This document shows positions 5,129-52,428 of a stretch of 64,000 nt of DNA, in pieces; the first letter of the stretch is position 1; every line of letters begins with the position of its first letter. The DNA comes from Methanospirillaceae archaeon (GTDB taxonomy: Archaea; Halobacteriota; Methanomicrobia; Methanomicrobiales; Methanospirillaceae). Below the pieces are notes generated by a model that was not told where the DNA came from, searched no databases, and saw only the letters and a program-made list of their open reading frames with translations. The DNA is taken from contig JAFGOM010000052.1 in assembly GCA_016926505.1 (NCBI GenBank), positions 1 through 64,000 of the forward strand, in the 5' to 3' direction. The position numbers and the translations under genes are program-made.

Positions 5129-5604
5129 AACCGGCTCTCACACATCAGTGCGGGATAAATCGACTGTTTGATAGATGATGCAATACCGGAATGCAGAATT
5201 GATTGTATCGCAAAAATCTCCCATTATCTGAACATGGATAAAGGAAATGAACGGAATATGATGTGGTATCAGAATGAAAAAAACCGGCGGGTGTGATTTT
5301 ATCAGATACGGTTTTTCATATTGACCGGTTACCACGGAGATGAGAGATAAAATCACGAGATCGATATCTCATTGGCGTTCCCGGTTCCGCTACAAAAAAG
5401 GGCAATCGATGGTGACATCATCATTTCTCGTTTCCCTATACCGTGACAGACAGGAATGTTGACATTGGTGATAGGGGTTAATGGTGCGAAGATAACAGGA
5501 TTATGAATAAGGGGTAGTGTTACCATATCTTTATTGCAATATTGAGAAGAGAAGGAAAATAGAGAGATAGTATCTGAATTTTTACCAGATCTGAATTGCC
5601 TATA
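5129..5604. other. Gene-free interval
   Basis: About 475 bases between convergent genes. Short frames exist on both strands but none has a convincing SD, promoter or family match. I see no RNA gene or large repeat. Confidence 0.4.
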
Positions 5605-6855
5605 TTACCGTTTAAATTGAGGTTTAAGGTTTACCTGCATCATCTGGGGTTTTTTAATCTGGGAACCCGGGTTAATCATGACATCAGTTAAAAACTGCTG
5701 ATACCCGGCCTGACCAACCTGTATCTGGTGATTCCCTGCAGACAGATCCCTGATGGTAATGGGAGCAGTTCCTCTTTTTACTCCATCAATATAAACCTCT
5801 GCACCCGGGATATTAGAACGAACCTCAATCATTCCGGGATCTTTATTCTGATTCTGCAATGCCGATGGTTTTTGACCGGTGAAATCTTTGGGAACTACTA
5901 TTGTCGGGATAACGGTGGGGATTGGGTTTTCTTCGATAATGTGTGGTTTTGTAGTATCAGGCCTGATCGGTGTAGCTGATTCCCGTAACTGGGGGCGGGT
6001 GGGGATCGGTGTTGTTATTCTGCCATATCTCGGAAATGCTGTTTTTTCCGCATCCTCATCTTCTTTATCTTCAATGCCAGATTGTGCCCTGGCACCGGTA
6101 AACGAATCACTCAGGGGTCTGCCAGATGAGGAAGATACACCACTATCCGTATCGGTCTCTTCATCATCACCACCATCGTACTCTGACCCGGCACTGCTTT
6201 CTGTATCTTCCTCTCCGTCTCCTGATTCACTTTCTGTCGACGAGGAGGTCTCTTCTTCCGATGATGATGGAGTACCTGATCCAGACCCGGTTTCAGTCTC
6301 TGTTGCTGAACCAGTTCCTGACTCTGTCTCTGTTTCGGTTCCCGATCCAGTCCCTGATGAAGTTGGAGTGGGTGTAGGGGTGATTGGATCAGGGTTTACG
6401 ATGATAACAGTAGGGCCGTTATCCTCATAAATATAGCCGGGATATATCACAGGATAAGCATATCCGGAATAGATTATTTCAGACGAACTCACTTGGGTAA
6501 CGGTGTCGGATGAATAGTCCACAGTATCAGAATCCGGTTCTGTTCCCGTGTCACTGGCTGATTCACTCTGGTTTAAGGCAATATAGACAGCATACCGGGT
6601 ATCATCAAGGATCTCAATCTCTGTCTGATAATCCTCATATCCGGGAATTGTGAGGAGGAATGGATAGGTCCCGGCAGATAACCCTATTATGGTTGCGGGT
6701 GTTGTTCCAGAAAGTGTTTCATTAAAGAGGAGTGATGCCCCTTCCGGTGTGGTGTTGATGACGAGTGACGATTCATCTGCAGTTGTGGCATACCCTGTAA
6801 AGAGGGAGAAGCAGAGTGTTATGATAAGAATAATTTTTGCATGGTCCATGAGCAT
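5605..6855 (-). CDS. Secreted protein with two PEGA domains and a Ser/Thr/Glu-rich linker
   Basis: The longest frame opens at 6921, but ATG at 6855 (or 6849) directly precedes a classic signal peptide (MDHAKIILIITLCFSLFTG), and a TATA-like ATATTTATTA box lies upstream, so 6855 is preferred. A first PEGA domain (VINTTPEGASLLFNE) follows the signal peptide. A long low-complexity linker rich in S, T, G, E and D occupies the middle. A second PEGA domain (SNIPGAEVYIDGVKRG) is near the C-terminus. PEGA domains are common in archaeal and bacterial surface proteins and pseudokinase-linked proteins; the linker looks like a glycosylated spacer (inference). No membrane anchor at the C-terminus. Substrate or partner unknown. 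Confidence 0.8.
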   Translation of the reverse strand: MLMDHAKIILIITLCFSLFTGYATTADESSLVINTTPEGASLLFNETLSGTTPATIIGLSAGTYPFLLTIPGYEDYQTEIEILDDTRYAVYIALNQSESASDTGTEPDSDTVDYSSDTVTQVSSSEIIYSGYAYPVIYPGYIYEDNGPTVIIVNPDPITPTPTPTSSGTGSGTETETESGTGSATETETGSGSGTPSSSEEETSSSTESESGDGEEDTESSAGSEYDGGDDEETDTDSGVSSSSGRPLSDSFTGARAQSGIEDKEDEDAEKTAFPRYGRITTPIPTRPQLRESATPIRPDTTKPHIIEENPIPTVIPTIVVPKDFTGQKPSALQNQNKDPGMIEVRSNIPGAEVYIDGVKRGTAPITIRDLSAGNHQIQVGQAGYQQFLTDVMINPGSQIKKPQMMQVNLKPQFKR

Positions 6856-7147
6856 AGTAGTACATTTGTTAATAGGGGTATAGTGTTTTTGGCAGGGATA
6901 TTTGACAGTAATAAATATCACTCTCCAAAAAAATGATGAGATGTCTTTGGAATCACCCGGATATTACATTATGATCCTTAACTTGATTAACCTCTAATTT
7001 AACTCGTTGTATTGATCTGCGATTTATCGGATTCGGATCAGTTATCCATAATAATGCCTGATTGTGAAGTATTAGGTTTCACAGGAGAGCATTTGATTCT
7101 TAAACGCAGATCAACAGGTATAAGAGGTAAAAATCAGAATACTCTTC

Positions 7148-8968
7148 ATGGGTAAAGAAAAAATACCAGCAATCACCAAAAACCGTGAGATCTATCTTCT
7201 CGTTGCTTTTTTCATTGTGCTCCTCCTGATAAAGATACTTCTTGTCCTACCCATGCAGTGCCCGTCAATTATCGGTGATGAGACCACCTATGCCGGGAAT
7301 GCAAAGGATTTTGCTTCAAACATCGGCATCCAGAGTATCATGGAGATGAAGAACCCTCCCGTCTATTCGATAATACTTTCAATAGCGTATATTTTGGGAG
7401 ATCCCTCCGGGGCGAATTACCATCTGCTGCTTATCATCAATGCTTTTATCGGGGCATGTATCCTGTTTCCTGCCTACTATCTTCTTCGCAATTATTGTGA
7501 TTTCTTGGTTGCATTATCGGGTGCAGTTCTTGTCTGTGTCGTTCCGGCGGTCTTTAACTGGGGATTTTATGTGATGACCGAGACTCTCTTTACGACCCTT
7601 TTTGTATGCTCACTGTATGCCATGAACCGGATGTTTTTAACAAACAAACTCATCTGGGTGTGGGGTATGGCAGTGACACTTCTTCTCATGGTTGGGACGA
7701 AAGCTGTCGGAATCTACGAGGTTCCCCTTGCCCTTATCGCGGCCCTTTTTTTTGTTCTGCTCTGCAGACGTACTGGTGTCTTTGATCAGGTGAAACAAAC
7801 ACAGGCCCTCTTTATTGGATTATGTGCATTACTTATAGCGGGTATCGCCTGGGTTTTTCTTACAATATCCAATGTCAATGCATATACTGCTTACAATACG
7901 GGCGGATATCTTTCCCATTTAATAACGATATTTATAAAACCCGATTTAATACTGACTTTCCTGATTCTTTTTATCCGTGAAACCCAAATCCTTGTGCTTG
8001 CCAGTTATCTTGTCCTGTTTGTATCTGCTTTCCTCCTCTTGTACTACCTGGTGATGATACCTATTTCGAGCACTTCTGATTGGGAAGAGATATTTTCGAC
8101 TGGCTTTTTTCGACTCACTCAGAGTAATAACCTACTTGTACCTGCATTAACCTCTCTGGTCTTTTTCGTTCTGCTTTCCGTTTTCGTCTCTCTTGTTCTT
8201 GTGACAAACCATATGATGTATGTCCCAACCTGGCAATACGTTGGTGAGGAACAGTTTTTCCAGATATTCAGCAGATACTTAGATCCTGTAATTCCTGGAC
8301 TGCTTATTATCGGAATTATCGGTATGAGTATTCTGAATTTTTCCAGGAATTATATAAAAACCAGGAATGTCTTTACAATCTCCCTTCTTGTTTCCATATT
8401 CCTTTTTTATGTTAATTTTCCATTTCTGGGATACCGCATTGGTGATACATTATCGATATTCTCATTTTCATGGCTTTCTGCACTAACCCACTCAGAGTTT
8501 ACCGGTTTTTGTATTGTTGCCTTTCTCTTGTCTGTTGCAACATCCCTCTTCCTGTATGCAATGAAAAAATCCAAAATCTACTATTTTCTCCTCTTTCTTG
8601 TTGCAGTCTCTCTGGTTCTTTCCGGGTATACCTACACCCTTTCAGTCTCTTCATCAGAGAATGCCTACTTTGGATGGGGAGGGGCCTGTGGCAGGGCACT
8701 GGCAGAGTCGATACCGGAAAATGCCAGGGTTTTTGTTTTTTATGGAGATGAGGGGGACTCTGCAGAGATATCCCGATATATTATTCCGTTTTACATCCAG
8801 AGAGCAATTTCTGTGGTAAGGAAAGAGGAACTGGAGTCAGAAAACTTTACTATATCACTATCTGAACAAGGAGTTCCTGTATACCTGGTTTCAGATGTCC
8901 CGTTGATAGTGGATCAGAGACCATCACTGTACGGATATCCTGGATATATCCTGCAGGTTTCAGGATAA
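7148..8968 (+). CDS. GT39/ArnT-like membrane glycosyltransferase
   Basis: A 606-aa polytopic membrane protein with about 12 hydrophobic segments. After the first helix the sequence has a GDETTY motif (Asp44-Glu45), corresponding to the acidic catalytic pair in the first extracytoplasmic loop of PMT/ArnT-type transferases, which use polyprenyl-phosphate sugars. A soluble C-terminal portion (about 510-606) follows the last helix. It ends 15 bases before the convergent GT2 gene, which makes a DPM1-like enzyme; that enzyme could supply the lipid-linked sugar donor and this one transfer it to a protein or lipid outside the membrane (inference). Exact sugar and acceptor unknown. Confidence 0.75.
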   Translation: MGKEKIPAITKNREIYLLVAFFIVLLLIKILLVLPMQCPSIIGDETTYAGNAKDFASNIGIQSIMEMKNPPVYSIILSIAYILGDPSGANYHLLLIINAFIGACILFPAYYLLRNYCDFLVALSGAVLVCVVPAVFNWGFYVMTETLFTTLFVCSLYAMNRMFLTNKLIWVWGMAVTLLLMVGTKAVGIYEVPLALIAALFFVLLCRRTGVFDQVKQTQALFIGLCALLIAGIAWVFLTISNVNAYTAYNTGGYLSHLITIFIKPDLILTFLILFIRETQILVLASYLVLFVSAFLLLYYLVMIPISSTSDWEEIFSTGFFRLTQSNNLLVPALTSLVFFVLLSVFVSLVLVTNHMMYVPTWQYVGEEQFFQIFSRYLDPVIPGLLIIGIIGMSILNFSRNYIKTRNVFTISLLVSIFLFYVNFPFLGYRIGDTLSIFSFSWLSALTHSEFTGFCIVAFLLSVATSLFLYAMKKSKIYYFLLFLVAVSLVLSGYTYTLSVSSSENAYFGWGGACGRALAESIPENARVFVFYGDEGDSAEISRYIIPFYIQRAISVVRKEELESENFTISLSEQGVPVYLVSDVPLIVDQRPSLYGYPGYILQVSG

Positions 8969-8983
8969 ATGTGATAATCCCAC

Positions 8984-9874
8984 TCACATCAGCCTGTTTT
9001 TCTTTAATATAATCGCAAGGGATTGCAGGGTAAGACCTGATGTACAGAGCAGGACACCGATGATGAGAAGGAGTATACTGAGTAACGCATATGAGAAGGG
9101 AAAAACCTTTGTAGTATCATATATCCGAAATGCCATTAATCCGGTTATCATTCCAAAAAATCCGATAATAAATCCAGGTATACCCAATAAAAAGGCTGGT
9201 CTTCCCATGATCCGTGATAAAAAAATGGTTGAAAAAACATCGAACCCGTGATGAATTGGATGAACCTTGTGTTGGTTCAAAAGATCATATCTGACGCGAA
9301 CCGGTACTTCTGTAACTCTCAATCCAAGAGATGCAAAGTGATTGAGCATATCAGACTCAAGAGAAAACCCTTCTGACCTGAAGGTAAACTGCGAGTATGC
9401 TGCTTTTCCGAGTGCACGGAACCCGTTCTGGGTATCTGAACACTTAAGCGTGGAATTCGTGTTGGTTATAAAATCCAAAGATTTCTGTCCCAGTCTCCGG
9501 TACCGGGGAACTTCAGATGAAGCGGTGATAAATCGCGATCCAACAACAAGATCGGCGTTATTATCAAGGATAGGTGAGATAACAGACGGGATGTCATCAG
9601 GATCGTGTTGACCGTCAGCATCGATAAGCACGATAACGAGAGGTTCTTCTTTTTTCGCCTCTTCAATCCCGCGAAACACAGCACGTGCTTTCCCTCCGTT
9701 ATCAGGGAGAGTTATCACTTTTGCACCTGCCAGAGAAGCTATCTTTGAGGTGGCATCCCGGGATCCATCGTCTATGACAATTACGGTTGAGACATAAATT
9801 TTTGTCTTAAGAACCACACTTCCAATCGCAGTCTCTTCATTATAGGCCGGTATAACAGCAACGATGGATCTCAT
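8984..9874 (-). CDS. GT2 family, dolichyl-phosphate glycosyltransferase (DPM1-like)
   Basis: A 296-aa GT-A glycosyltransferase. It begins with the family motif IPAYNEE, has DDGS at about 35-38 and the metal-binding DAD at 85-87 followed by GQHDPDD, and continues with GSRF and the QNGFRA region. Two hydrophobic helices at the C-terminus (about 230-285) anchor it to the membrane, as in archaeal dolichol-phosphate sugar synthases. It probably transfers a sugar from a nucleotide donor to dolichyl phosphate at the cytoplasmic face. Convergent with the GT39-like gene and divergent from a small EamA-type protein, suggesting one lipid-linked sugar pathway (inference). Confidence 0.85.
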   Translation of the reverse strand: MRSIVAVIPAYNEETAIGSVVLKTKIYVSTVIVIDDGSRDATSKIASLAGAKVITLPDNGGKARAVFRGIEEAKKEEPLVIVLIDADGQHDPDDIPSVISPILDNNADLVVGSRFITASSEVPRYRRLGQKSLDFITNTNSTLKCSDTQNGFRALGKAAYSQFTFRSEGFSLESDMLNHFASLGLRVTEVPVRVRYDLLNQHKVHPIHHGFDVFSTIFLSRIMGRPAFLLGIPGFIIGFFGMITGLMAFRIYDTTKVFPFSYALLSILLLIIGVLLCTSGLTLQSLAIILKKNRLM

Positions 9875-19536: not shown

Positions 19537-20238
19537 TTATTTACTGGAAATATCGTGATGTTTTCGAAGGTACTCGCGGATAGAATCCGATTTCAGGAAA
19601 CCAATATCAAGCTGGTCAATGATGGAATTTATGATGCGAACCTGTTCGGTTATCTTATCCCCGTACATTCCATTTTCAAGCTCGGCATACCCCATGATAA
19701 GAGTGAGCGGATTTCGAATCTGGTCATTAAGGATTGCAAGCTGAGAGATATTCTCCTCTATCTGGCGCATTGATATGAGTTCCCGTTCCTGCATCTCTAC
19801 AATTCCGGTGATATTCCTCCCGGCAATGATTACTGCCCGCATATCATTGTGCTCATCAAGCAGCGGAGACATCCGGATATCTGCCAGAAAGGTGGACCCA
19901 TCCCTGTTGTTCCCGGGAATAATGCACGAATAACGCTTTTTCTCTGCGATAGCCGTAATAAATTCAATAATGCTCTCTTCTTTAAGGAAGAGATTAGCAA
20001 AGAGTATACTGATATCCTTCCCCTGCATATCAGAGAGCGTATACCCAAACTCATTTTCTGCTGCTTTATTTGCATACGTTATCAGGCTGGTGTCTGAATC
20101 AATGGTTATCAGAAAGTCTGATACCTGCTCTGTTATTGAAGAGAGGAAATTCATTTGTTTCTGTTCTGAAACGATACTGCTGATATCATGAATCAGGGTA
20201 AGGATGGTCTCATCATCCTCAGCACTCAGACGCGTCAT
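19537..20238 (-). CDS. PAS-domain signalling protein, 3' part of an amber-split gene
   Basis: 233 codons from ATG 20238. The frame continues upstream without interruption for 34 more codons to a TAG at 20341-20343, and beyond it is the same frame as the 643-aa sensor, so this is most likely the C-terminal quarter of that protein. It contains the end of one PAS domain (TMTRLSAEDD, HDISSIV), a full PAS domain (about 28-150: TITYANKAAENEFGYTL-like region and GRNITGI) and a helical dimerisation segment with ILNDQIRNPLTLIMGYAEL. In related kinases the residue before IRNPL is the phosphoacceptor His; here it is Gln, and no ATPase domain follows. A separate start at 20238 would leave half a PAS domain. 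Confidence 0.7.
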   Translation of the reverse strand: MTRLSAEDDETILTLIHDISSIVSEQKQMNFLSSITEQVSDFLITIDSDTSLITYANKAAENEFGYTLSDMQGKDISILFANLFLKEESIIEFITAIAEKKRYSCIIPGNNRDGSTFLADIRMSPLLDEHNDMRAVIIAGRNITGIVEMQERELISMRQIEENISQLAILNDQIRNPLTLIMGYAELENGMYGDKITEQVRIINSIIDQLDIGFLKSDSIREYLRKHHDISSK

Positions 20239-20340
20239 GGTTATCTCAGTAATTATCTCTTCATTATCATCGCCGGTTATCTTCCATGAAAAAACTTCGG
20301 TATTCCCTTTCTTTACCGAGAGGATAATATGGAGGATCTT

Positions 20341-20343
20341 CTA
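20341..20343 (-). other. In-frame TAG interrupting a PAS domain
   Basis: The codons on both sides are in one frame: ...ATG CGA TCC ATA TAG AAG ATC CTC... The 34 codons after it carry no further stop and complete the PAS fold. A single base change from CAG, GAG, AAG or TGG would create it. TAG is also a genuine terminator for several genes in this window (rpl30e, the AI-2E-family permease, the DUF5611 gene), so general reassignment is unlikely. Confidence 0.85.
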
Positions 20344-22251
20344 TATGGATCGCATTCCGTCGGGCTGGTATTCCGGTGCATAATCAAGGAATGAAGATTC
20401 GTACAACTCAAAGGGATACTTGCCAAAAAGAAGGCTTGCCTGGTAATTGCAGTCAAATATCTCTGAATTGTGCAGAACGAGTATCGGTGTCCCGGCAGAC
20501 TCAAATAACTGCCGATAACGCAGTTCTGATGCAATGATCTCCATCTCAGCCTTTTTTCTCTCGGTAATGTCCCTGATGACGGTAAGAATCCGGGTTTTTC
20601 CATCATCATGCATCAGATGCAGGGTCATTTCACCGGAAAAAACACTGCTGTCATGCCTGATAAAATCAGTTTCAAAGGTGAGAGTGGGAGTATCATACAG
20701 CTGGTCTGCATGGTAACGCAGCAACTCATCACCCGATAGCATCATGAGATCTGAGATGGTTTTTTTGTATAACTCATTCCTTGAATATCCAAATGTCTCG
20801 CAACAGGTCTCGTTAACCTCTGATATCGGAGAGAAATCGTTCTTTTTAGAGATATCAAAGACTAAAATTGACTGGGAGATCCGGTTAAAGAGATCGTAAT
20901 ATCGCTCCTGTGTTCTTTTCACAGACTGGCTCATCTTTTCACGGGTAAGAGCTGCCCCTATTAAGGCACCGGTTACATTGCATGCAAGACGGTCAACATG
21001 TGACCAGGACCTGTTCTCATCCGGATCCGTGCATGCGATGACACCCCACCAGTTATTCCCGACAAATACCGGAACAAGGATACATGATCCGGATTGTAAC
21101 AGGGAGAACCGGTCTTTCTGATTCTCATCCATCCCGCTGCATAACACGATGATATCTTTTCCTGCCGAAAGATCCATCTCCCATGTTATGAACGGATCGT
21201 ACCCGATGACAATGGTATCAAAGCCGGTATCTTCTGATATTTTTGTCTCATTGTTCCAGCTCTCCTGTAAATATCCTGCGAGGGTTCCGTTCTCATCGAT
21301 CTCATTTTTAAAAAGAAGGATGCTGTTATATCCCAAAAGTCCTCCAAGACGGGAGAAGATATCATTTATGTTCTCTTTAAAATCAGTTTCAGGCAAAAAT
21401 TTTCCGGCAATGTATGATATGGTCTCAACAATGGCTTCCCGATGATCACGGTCTTTGGCAACCGAGACGATTACTTCTTCACGGGATATGGCATAGAGAG
21501 CATTGGCAAGATCATCAGCAATCTCATCAAAGATGGTTAACTCTTCTTTTAGATCCGGAACGCCTGAGGGTGCGACAGCATACAGGATTCCAAAAGAACC
21601 ATCTTTGGATACAAGTCGTCTTGAAAAAACCGACTGTTTTCCCCGATCAAAAAGAGCTACCTTACATCCTTCCCTGATGCAGCGATCATGATGGTATATG
21701 ACGGTGGTCTCTGTTGCAGTGACACCTGATGCACAGGGAGGGATATCTCCTGATTGTACCTGTGCAATAAATTCCTCTAAAAGGATATTGGTTTCCTGTT
21801 TGCAAGGAGAATGAATTATTCTGTCCGAATCACCGGTAAAGATCCATGCAGAAATAAAACCACCGTGAGTTGTGAGGGATTCGCAGACTTTCTCCGGTAA
21901 CATATCCCGGTCATGTTCCTGTGCAATCAGTTTCCTGATTGCGATAAGAGATCGCAGGAGATTGTTTACGTGGGTAGCTTTCCGTAAGGCATCATTTCGC
22001 GTTTTTATGTAGGTATATATCAGGAATCCGGTAAGGAAACAAGCGATTAAAAAAGTAATCCTGACGAAAAGAGCATGTTTGGAGATATTATAAAAAAGGG
22101 TATCAAAGATGCTCTCCGGCATCTCAAAGACCATGAACTGCAGGTTATATTTGTACAGGTAAAACCACAATACACTGTCGGCTATCCAGAAGAGAACTCC
22201 AAAAAGAAGCATACTCCCGATAATAACAAATGCGAGCCCTTTATTCTGCAT
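20341..22251 (-). CDS. Membrane-anchored GAF/PAS sensor, 5' part of an amber-split gene
   Basis: The longest frame opens at 22272; ATG 22251 has AAAGGA six bases upstream and is preferred. Two membrane helices lie near the N-terminus (GLAFVIIGSMLLFGVLFWI and a second at about residues 65-85), followed by GAF-like domains (about 90-240 and 260-420) and two PAS domains (about 445-560, and from about 570). The reading frame stops at TAG (20341-20343) inside the last PAS domain, right after QPDGMRSI; the domain resumes in the same frame beyond the stop. With read-through the product would be about 904 residues. No kinase domain is present in either part. Function: probable signal sensor whose output is unknown. 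Confidence 0.75.
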   Translation of the reverse strand: MQNKGLAFVIIGSMLLFGVLFWIADSVLWFYLYKYNLQFMVFEMPESIFDTLFYNISKHALFVRITFLIACFLTGFLIYTYIKTRNDALRKATHVNNLLRSLIAIRKLIAQEHDRDMLPEKVCESLTTHGGFISAWIFTGDSDRIIHSPCKQETNILLEEFIAQVQSGDIPPCASGVTATETTVIYHHDRCIREGCKVALFDRGKQSVFSRRLVSKDGSFGILYAVAPSGVPDLKEELTIFDEIADDLANALYAISREEVIVSVAKDRDHREAIVETISYIAGKFLPETDFKENINDIFSRLGGLLGYNSILLFKNEIDENGTLAGYLQESWNNETKISEDTGFDTIVIGYDPFITWEMDLSAGKDIIVLCSGMDENQKDRFSLLQSGSCILVPVFVGNNWWGVIACTDPDENRSWSHVDRLACNVTGALIGAALTREKMSQSVKRTQERYYDLFNRISQSILVFDISKKNDFSPISEVNETCCETFGYSRNELYKKTISDLMMLSGDELLRYHADQLYDTPTLTFETDFIRHDSSVFSGEMTLHLMHDDGKTRILTVIRDITERKKAEMEIIASELRYRQLFESAGTPILVLHNSEIFDCNYQASLLFGKYPFELYESSFLDYAPEYQPDGMRSI

Positions 22252-22478
22252 CGAAAATCCTTTTCGATTCATACTATTGTATCAGGCTTCTCTTTACTGT
22301 TCCGGTTTTATCAGAGAGAACTGATATCTGATGATACATACGAATATAACTGGGTTTACGATCCATACCTGTGGCAGTGTATACCATTGCCTATTTCCCA
22401 TCACCGGAATATCATCGCAGGAAATCAATTCTTTTCTGATAGCAGAAAGAAAAAGGGGCATGTAAAAGAGATAGTATC

Positions 22479-50146: not shown

Positions 50147-52129
50147 ATGGCAAAAGAACTTACCACGAACCATGCCTTCGCGATAGAAGTCCTTTTGTAT
50201 TTCTCTGATCGGAAGATAACAAAAAAATTTCCTGACGATGTCCCTGATGAGATTCGTGAATGTCTTCTGACGATGTATGAGGACCAGAAGAAGGTGGAAG
50301 ACCCTGATTTTATCCTCGACGATGCAGGATTTACCGCAGAGATGGACAACCTCGTCTCATCAGGCCAGTTTTCAGACTGGCTTGAGGAAGTATTCCGTCC
50401 CCTTGCAGAAGAGGTGATAGCAGAAGATGCAGAGAAGTCAGAGACTGATAAGACCGTCCCGGTTTCCTCTCCTATCATCCCGGTTACCAAACCCTTTGTT
50501 CCTGATAAAAAATCACAGGAAATACGCGATTTTTTTGCAATTCATCAGATTAATGGGGCTGAAATTCCGGAACTTCCCGCTAAAATCGAGAAAATTCTGA
50601 AAGATAAGGTGCGTGACATCAAAAAGGAAGAAAATCCTGCTTTCAGACTGACCCAGAAACAGTTCCTGATGTACCTCACTGAAGTTACAGAAACAGTGGG
50701 ATTCGAAGCATGGCTCTGTAAAACTTTCCCTCTCTCTGATAATGAATCCGAGTATGCACATGATGAGGGAAGTTCGAAAATTCTCTATTCCGAATCACAG
50801 GTACCCCTTCCGGAATGGGTTAGTATTGATAGATTTAACCTGTTGGAGCGGTTTAACCGGGATAAATTCAGGTGGCTGATGCGGGATCATGCCCGGGTAT
50901 TAGAAGAACTCTCTTCTGATCCGGCGGTCATATCCCGAATTCATGACCGTATCTTTTCACTGATAGAAAAAGACCTGCCTCACCAGACTAATACCGATCT
51001 CGCAACCATCATCCTTAACCGTGAACTTGAAGGACTAACTGATCCCTCCCGGGTGATCACCGATGAGCAGGTAGAACAGATACTAAACCAGATGATCAGG
51101 GAGTACGAGCACACCCGGATTGAACCCTGTGAAGCCGTCGGTATTATTGCAGCCCAGTCAATAGGAGAACCCGGTACCCAGATGACGATGCGGACATTCC
51201 ATTATGCCGGTGTGGCCGAGATCAACGTTACCTTAGGTCTGCCCCGTCTTATCGAGATCATGGATGCAAGGAAAGAACCCTCAACGCCTACCATGACCAT
51301 CTACTTACGAAGTGGATACGCGACAGATCGTGACAAAGCCCGTGAAGTATCGTGGTATATCGAAGCAGCCAAGCTCCTGGAGTTTGGTGATATCACGACA
51401 GATATGGCAAACATGCAGATCGTTGTCACTTTAAACAAGCAGGTCTGTGATAAACGCAAGATATCTGTCGCAGATATTCTTGAAGCAGCACCACGCAAAA
51501 TCAAGGATCGTCGTCACTATCGTGATTTTGAGTGTGAGATCGATGAAACTATCCCGAAAATGACCTTCATCCCCAAGGACCGGGAGAGTTACCAGAACCT
51601 GTTTCAGTTAAAGGAACATGTGCGAAATGTCATCGTGCAGGGAATTGATGATATCGAACGTGTTGTTGTGCGAAAAGAGAACGGCGAATATATCCTCTAT
51701 ACCGAAGGATCAAACCTAAAGGATGTCTTTGCCGTAAACGGGGTTGATACAACCCGCACGCGGACAAACAATATAAACGAGATATCACACGTTCTTGGGA
51801 TAGAAGCTGCCCGTAATGCAATTATCTTTGAAGCTATCGCAACCCTGCAGGAGCAGGGTATCATGGTTGATGTCAGGCATATCATGCTTGTGGCAGATAT
51901 GATGTGCATGGAAGGGGAGGTCAAACAGATCGGCAGACATGGTATTGCAGGAGAGAAAGAGAGTGTCCTTTCACGGGCAGCATTTGAGGTCACGGTCAAC
52001 CATCTGCTGGATGCAGCTGTTGCGCACGAATCAGATATTCTCTGTGGTGTGACCGAGAATGTGATTGTCGGCCAGCCGATTCAGCTCGGGACTGGAGATG
52101 TTAAATTAGTTGTAAGACATACCTCATAG
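50147..52129 (+). CDS. rpoA2: RNA polymerase subunit A'' (RpoA2) with a large duplicated N-terminal extension
   Basis: 660 aa, against about 380-400 in most archaea (from memory). The canonical A'' part starts around residue 255 and carries [20 protein letters not shown] (about 326-345), the trigger-loop segment [12 protein letters not shown], and the C-terminal [12 protein letters not shown] and [12 protein letters not shown] regions. One oddity is Cys in EPCEAVG where Gly is usual. Residues 1-255 are extra. Within them residues 33-86 and 144-196 align without gaps over 51 positions with 15 identities (shared P..I...L, D.KK.E.P.F.L, F..WL...F), so the extension is a tandem duplication joined by a Pro/Val/Glu-rich linker. 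Function of the extension is unknown. Confidence 0.92.
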
Positions 52130-52140
52130 GAAGAATTGAT

Positions 52141-52428
52141 ATGGATTTTAATACGTCGCTCAGGCGAGCAATAAAGACCGGAAACGTTATTCTCGGACAG
52201 AATGAGACCGCTGTCTGTATCGAAGAGAAGAAGGCAAAACTTGTAGTGATGGCTGAAAACTGCCCTTCCGCATTCCGGAAAAAGGTAGAAGAAAGAGAGG
52301 ATACTTCCCTTTATATTTATGAAGGCTCAAGTGTTCAGCTCGGTCGTGCCTGCGGTAAACCGTTTATGGTAAGTGCCCTTGCCATTGTCGAGCCGGGAGA
52401 ATCAGATATTCTCTCTCTTTCCAGGTAG
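52141..52428 (+). CDS. rpl30e: Ribosomal protein L30e
   Basis: 95 aa, usual length. L7Ae/L30e fold with IKTGNVILGQNETAV, KLVVMAENCP and YEGSSVQLGRACGKPF, the RNA-binding loop. Normal partner in this archaeal operon between rpoA2 and nusA. Ends with TAG, nine bases before nusA. Confidence 0.95.
   Translation: MDFNTSLRRAIKTGNVILGQNETAVCIEEKKAKLVVMAENCPSAFRKKVEEREDTSLYIYEGSSVQLGRACGKPFMVSALAIVEPGESDILSLSR

Follow-up and report, generated by a model that had tools for sequence, protein, structure and literature searches.

A sensor gene on the minus strand of the window (the whole stretch of 64,000 nucleotides of Methanospirillaceae DNA that was analysed) is interrupted by one in-frame TAG codon, and this interruption probably reflects a nonsense mutation that recently struck one member of a large redundant set of PAS sensors, making the gene a pseudogene of recent origin or a null allele at the strain level. 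The locus would represent a single gene for a membrane-anchored GAF/PAS sensor of 911 residues that ends in a HisKA-like domain and lacks an ATPase domain. A recent single-base change would have generated the TAG inside the second PAS domain, and termination at residue 643 would cut the product off midway through PAS 2, so that PAS 3 and the output domain would be missing as well. This truncated product is most likely non-functional. The host genome has more than 150 PAS-domain matches, and damage was also seen in at least two of its other PAS sensor genes. A sequence-only reading of the region had placed four explanations side by side: a recent nonsense mutation, a sequencing error, programmed read-through and amber decoding. 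Our analyses favoured the first of these; amber decoding was unsupported and read-through specific to TAG was unlikely, and an error, hard to tell from a mutation, was less likely.

The organization of the interrupted gene is given in Table 1. An ORF of 643 codons, encoding 643 amino acids, is terminated by the TAG at codon 644. The same frame remains open past this stop for 34 codons that contain no ATG, GTG or TTG, reaches an ATG at position 20238 and continues from there for 233 codons to a TAA at 19537. These coordinates and this frame agreed with those of the sequence-only reading. When read through, the frame (19537 to 22272) comprises 911 codons, and the single TAG is the only lesion in it. 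Mean codon scores per codon were 0.27 in the linker, 0.23 in the 3' part and 0.16 in the 5' part. The linker and the 3' part are no less coding-like than the 5' part, and the sequence that follows the TAG is coding.

Table 1. Features of the interrupted sensor gene, in positions of the window
Feature	Positions	Strand	Remark
5' part, 643 codons: N-terminal membrane segment, GAF, PAS 1, first half of PAS 2	20341..22272	-	
N-terminal hydrophobic region, residues 21-110	21943..22212	-	43% identity to N-terminus of intact 324-aa gene of G025
GAF, residues 304-441	20950..21363	-	PF01590
PAS 1	20539..20913	-	TIGR00229, 56.4 bits
PAS 2, interrupted by TAG	20158..20529	-	over TIGR00229 cut-off only across TAG
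In-frame TAG, codon 644	20341..20343	-	
Start-free linker, 34 codons after TAG	20239..20340	-	codon score 0.27
3' part, 233 codons from first ATG: end of PAS 2, PAS 3, HisKA-like end domain	19537..20238	-	
PAS 3	19783..20160	-	TIGR00229, 53.4 bits
C-terminal HisKA-like domain, residues 844-889, no ATPase domain	19606..19743	-	PF00512

Profile searches (Pfam and TIGR00229) detected a GAF domain and three PAS domains in all in the read-through protein. The second PAS domain scored 24.9 bits with TIGR00229 when read across the TAG, above the cut-off of 22.9, while the left piece scored 18.0 bits and the right piece had no match. A similar pattern was obtained with PF00989: the domain scored 30.0 bits across the TAG and 22.4 bits in its left piece, and the right piece went unmatched. 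Hence the earlier proposal that this PAS domain is complete only across the stop was borne out by TIGR00229. The HisKA-like domain lay close to the PF00512 cut-off of 26.9 bits, scoring 26.6 bits in the read-through protein and 28.5 bits in the 3' part alone. The read-through protein had no HATPase match, and its frame ends about 60 codons after an IRNPL motif.

The frequency of comparable arrangements was examined in a 464-kb sample consisting of the window and 20 stretches of 20 kb, or about 16% of the genome. Fifteen pairs of same-frame ORF neighbours passed the length and score filter, and the window pair was the only one with a linker of more than 19 codons. Four of the other same-frame pairs were translated, each of which reads as two adjacent genes. 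One of them (L115), the only other same-frame pair in the sample separated by a TAG, was considered as a sign of reassignment and rejected, as its proteins are those of two adjacent genes with a 19-codon gap. Two rows of the homologue search marked as having one TAG, from genomes G025 and G029, were likewise set aside, the codons being ordinary terminal stops and not interruptions.

Relatives of the interrupted gene were examined for evidence of a single polypeptide. In a genome from another family of the same order (G025), an intact frame of 324 amino acids matches residues 21 to 110 at 43% identity and residues 712 to 909 at 32%, and a second frame of 1,686 amino acids matches residues 86 to 266 at 36% and residues 770 to 910 at 45%. 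As the N- and C-terminal parts are present in one frame in this genome, the 5' and 3' parts of the interrupted gene most likely formed one polypeptide. The alternative is that the TAG is a true stop and that the 3' part is translated separately from the ATG at 20238 as a small protein with PAS 3 and the HisKA-like domain. An intact PAS 3 and end domain do follow this ATG, and short sensors with PAS domains and a HisKA-like end exist, such as the 324-residue protein of G025. However, this codon falls within the interrupted PAS 2 and is separated from the stop by the 34 start-free codons, and no Shine-Dalgarno-like site above background precedes it: three matching bases were found, the mode being three for 8,394 random ATGs and four for 276 ORF starts. 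Separate translation of the 3' part is thus quite improbable.

Orthologues were sought for comparison at the site of the stop. There was no close orthologue among 41 relatives, the best match being 29% identical, and the 5' part had nothing closer than partial matches at 24% to 35% in 108 genomes of the family. A search for related loci gave one distant bacterial match at 22%. A comparison of orthologues at the TAG residue had been proposed in the sequence-only reading. Among the homologues aligned, 18 rows from 17 loci cross this site, and the column is variable, so that the residue formerly present at the TAG is not readable from them.

The possibility that the TAG encodes pyrrolysine or is read by a suppressor tRNA was raised by the identity of the codon and by the fact that some methanogens decode TAG in this way, as described in a 2010 review (PMC2933860); according to that review, the archaeal pyl genes then known are from Methanosarcinales only. 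TAG is commonly used as a stop in this genome, terminating 31 of 300 coding-like ORFs in the 464-kb sample and 9 of 41 hand-picked window genes, the interrupted gene included. This usage bore out the earlier view of TAG as a normal stop codon in this DNA, and the rpl30e gene cited in its favour, which we took as the short frame following the gene at 50147 to 52129, does end in TAG at 52426. A search of the genome for the pyl genes, as had been suggested, detected no match to the PylD profile, and the best PylS match scored 25.6 bits against a cut-off of 178, a level typical of other class II synthetases. None of the 41 genomes searched had PylS or PylD above the curated cut-offs, compared with 1 of 14 control genomes in each search; Methanosarcina acetivorans was among the control genomes that were positive in these searches.

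A cognate tRNA was also sought. No CTA anticodon was present among 42 tRNA matches. ARAGORN assigned an anticodon to 40 of these loci, and the other two contain introns and have anticodons, read by eye, of CCA (Trp) and CAT (Met). Six expected anticodons (Cys GCA, Tyr GTA, Ala TGC, Thr TGT, Leu CAG and Leu TAG) were also absent from the 42 matches, so this tRNA inventory is incomplete; the six may lie in assembly gaps or in intron-containing tRNAs. A pattern for the anticodon arm of tRNA-Pyl had no exact match in the genome, and its one-mismatch matches numbered 37 as opposed to 48 for a reversed control. The pyrrolysine reading was rejected on the results for PylS and PylD, with the tRNA and pattern searches as support, and amber decoding of this codon is extremely improbable. 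The window gene shares with the pyrrolysine-containing methylamine methyltransferases MtmB, MtbB and MttB an in-frame TAG beyond which the frame continues. In contrast to those genes, it belongs to an unrelated protein family, is not accompanied by pylS or pylD above the cut-offs and has a TAG at a position that is not conserved.

A survey of PAS domains in the same genome, in which 150 of 214 candidates were scored, gave at least 154 matches, and two among the matches listed had a stop inside, TAA in both cases. Within this genome, the paralogue that matches the window gene best lies on contig C77 (L078:243-3341) and encodes a receiver and several PAS domains. It has a single in-frame TAA at C77:5450, inside a PAS domain, with 37 codons from this stop to the next ATG, and is otherwise open over 1,033 codons. 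This gene is a twin of the window case with another stop codon. A receiver-PAS-histidine kinase gene on C22 (L119, minus strand, 5500-9800) contains TAA, TGA and further stops together with apparent frameshifts. These lesions lie between the last PAS domain and the ATPase part, and kinase sequence reappears in the same frame after the stops; this gene is a decayed sensor kinase, and the process is plain decay. In a relative (G031, contig C17, L118:207-2396), a gene of 730 codons for receiver and PAS domains is interrupted within a PAS domain by one in-frame TAG, and PylS and PylD above the cut-offs were absent from that genome.

The recurrence of single stops inside PAS domains was also considered as a sign of programmed or leaky read-through, by which some full-length sensor would be made, perhaps as part of a regulated pair of short and long forms. 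Preservation of the frame and of the coding signal beyond the stop would fit with such read-through, as would the finding that in the C77 and G031 genes, too, the frame is broken by just one stop and this stop falls within a PAS domain. The stops in these two genes differ, being TAA and TAG, respectively, and the genes are of another architecture, with a receiver and PAS domains, while the C22 gene exhibits ordinary decay; all of this argues against read-through, for which we see very little likelihood. The broader version, that single in-frame stops inside the PAS domains of sensors from these archaea (TAG in the window gene and G031, TAA in C77) act as leaky switches, is equally hard to credit. 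If it were true, termination would produce a receptor without an output domain and read-through would produce the full sensor. If a large redundant family is subject to nonsense mutation, more than one type of stop is expected to appear repeatedly in its genes, as was observed for PAS sensor genes; a mechanism specific to TAG does not lead to this expectation. Read-through specific to TAG is unlikely for the further reason that the sister sensor genes in this genome are broken by TAA or by several lesions.

A recent nonsense mutation is consistent with the lack of any other lesion in the 911 codons and with the coding signal on both sides of the TAG and in the linker. About 3.7% of random substitutions in the interrupted gene would produce a stop. 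With the whole frame assumed to be free to change and with indels ignored, drift since the event amounts to fewer than about 80 substitutions, or 2.9% of sites, at the 95% level. Absence of a second lesion only bounds neutral decay, if there has been any, to less than about 3% of sites, and is no proof of decay. The main rival to a nonsense mutation is a base-call or assembly error, with a sense codon in the real genome and an intact gene. Such an error would require one substitution in an otherwise perfect frame, and the genome is a draft of 121 contigs. Against this, completeness and contamination of the genome are estimated at 99.97% and 0.55%, no similar break was found in the other genes examined in the 464-kb sample, and the C22 PAS gene has several lesions, beyond what one base error could produce. 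We infer that the change is a real mutation, an error being unlikely.

Nonsense pseudogenes in large paralogous families share with the window gene a single stop, a frame that is otherwise open and other broken copies in the genome, with no difference in what was tested. The window gene resembles an ordinary damaged member of a very abundant gene family; it does not resemble a new reading of the code. The other broken copies suggest that ordinary stops are eliminating PAS sensor genes of this genome one at a time. Gene content and domain types point to a probable methanogen of the Methanomicrobia. In such an organism an in-frame TAG is readily taken for pyrrolysine, a reading for which this genome gives no support, and this correction is relevant wherever signalling genes are counted or genetic codes are inferred from such frames. 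The titles and abstract openings of literature retrieved on histidine kinase pseudogenes in Methanomicrobiales contained nothing on this point.

The end domain of the window gene resembles that of non-enzymatic histidine-kinase-like proteins ("HisKA, no HATPase") of Methanomicrobia and Archaeoglobi, which have a conserved His according to PMC5847659. Both have N-terminal PAS or GAF domains and a C-terminal HisKA-like domain and lack a HATPase domain. The window gene differs from the proteins described there in being interrupted by a TAG and in having an Asp, and not the conserved His, at the aligned place. In a weak alignment (E = 0.18) of LNDQIRNPL from the window with ISHELRTPL from chain 4jas_A, this Asp aligns to the phosphoacceptor His. 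An Asp three residues before the Arg of IRNPL was present in the window gene and in the other coding rows. Matches to IRNPL came from loci L007, L009-L015, L017, L018, L020, L078-L086 and L093 and from positions 19606-19743 of the window. All 21 coding rows had the pattern N/G-D-x-IRNPL, with Asp in place of the phosphoacceptor His, a 22nd row being an unrelated frame of the window; the His given as conserved in PMC5847659 was not seen at that place in the 21 rows. Twenty of these 21 coding frames end within 80 codons of the motif, which leaves no room for an ATPase domain.
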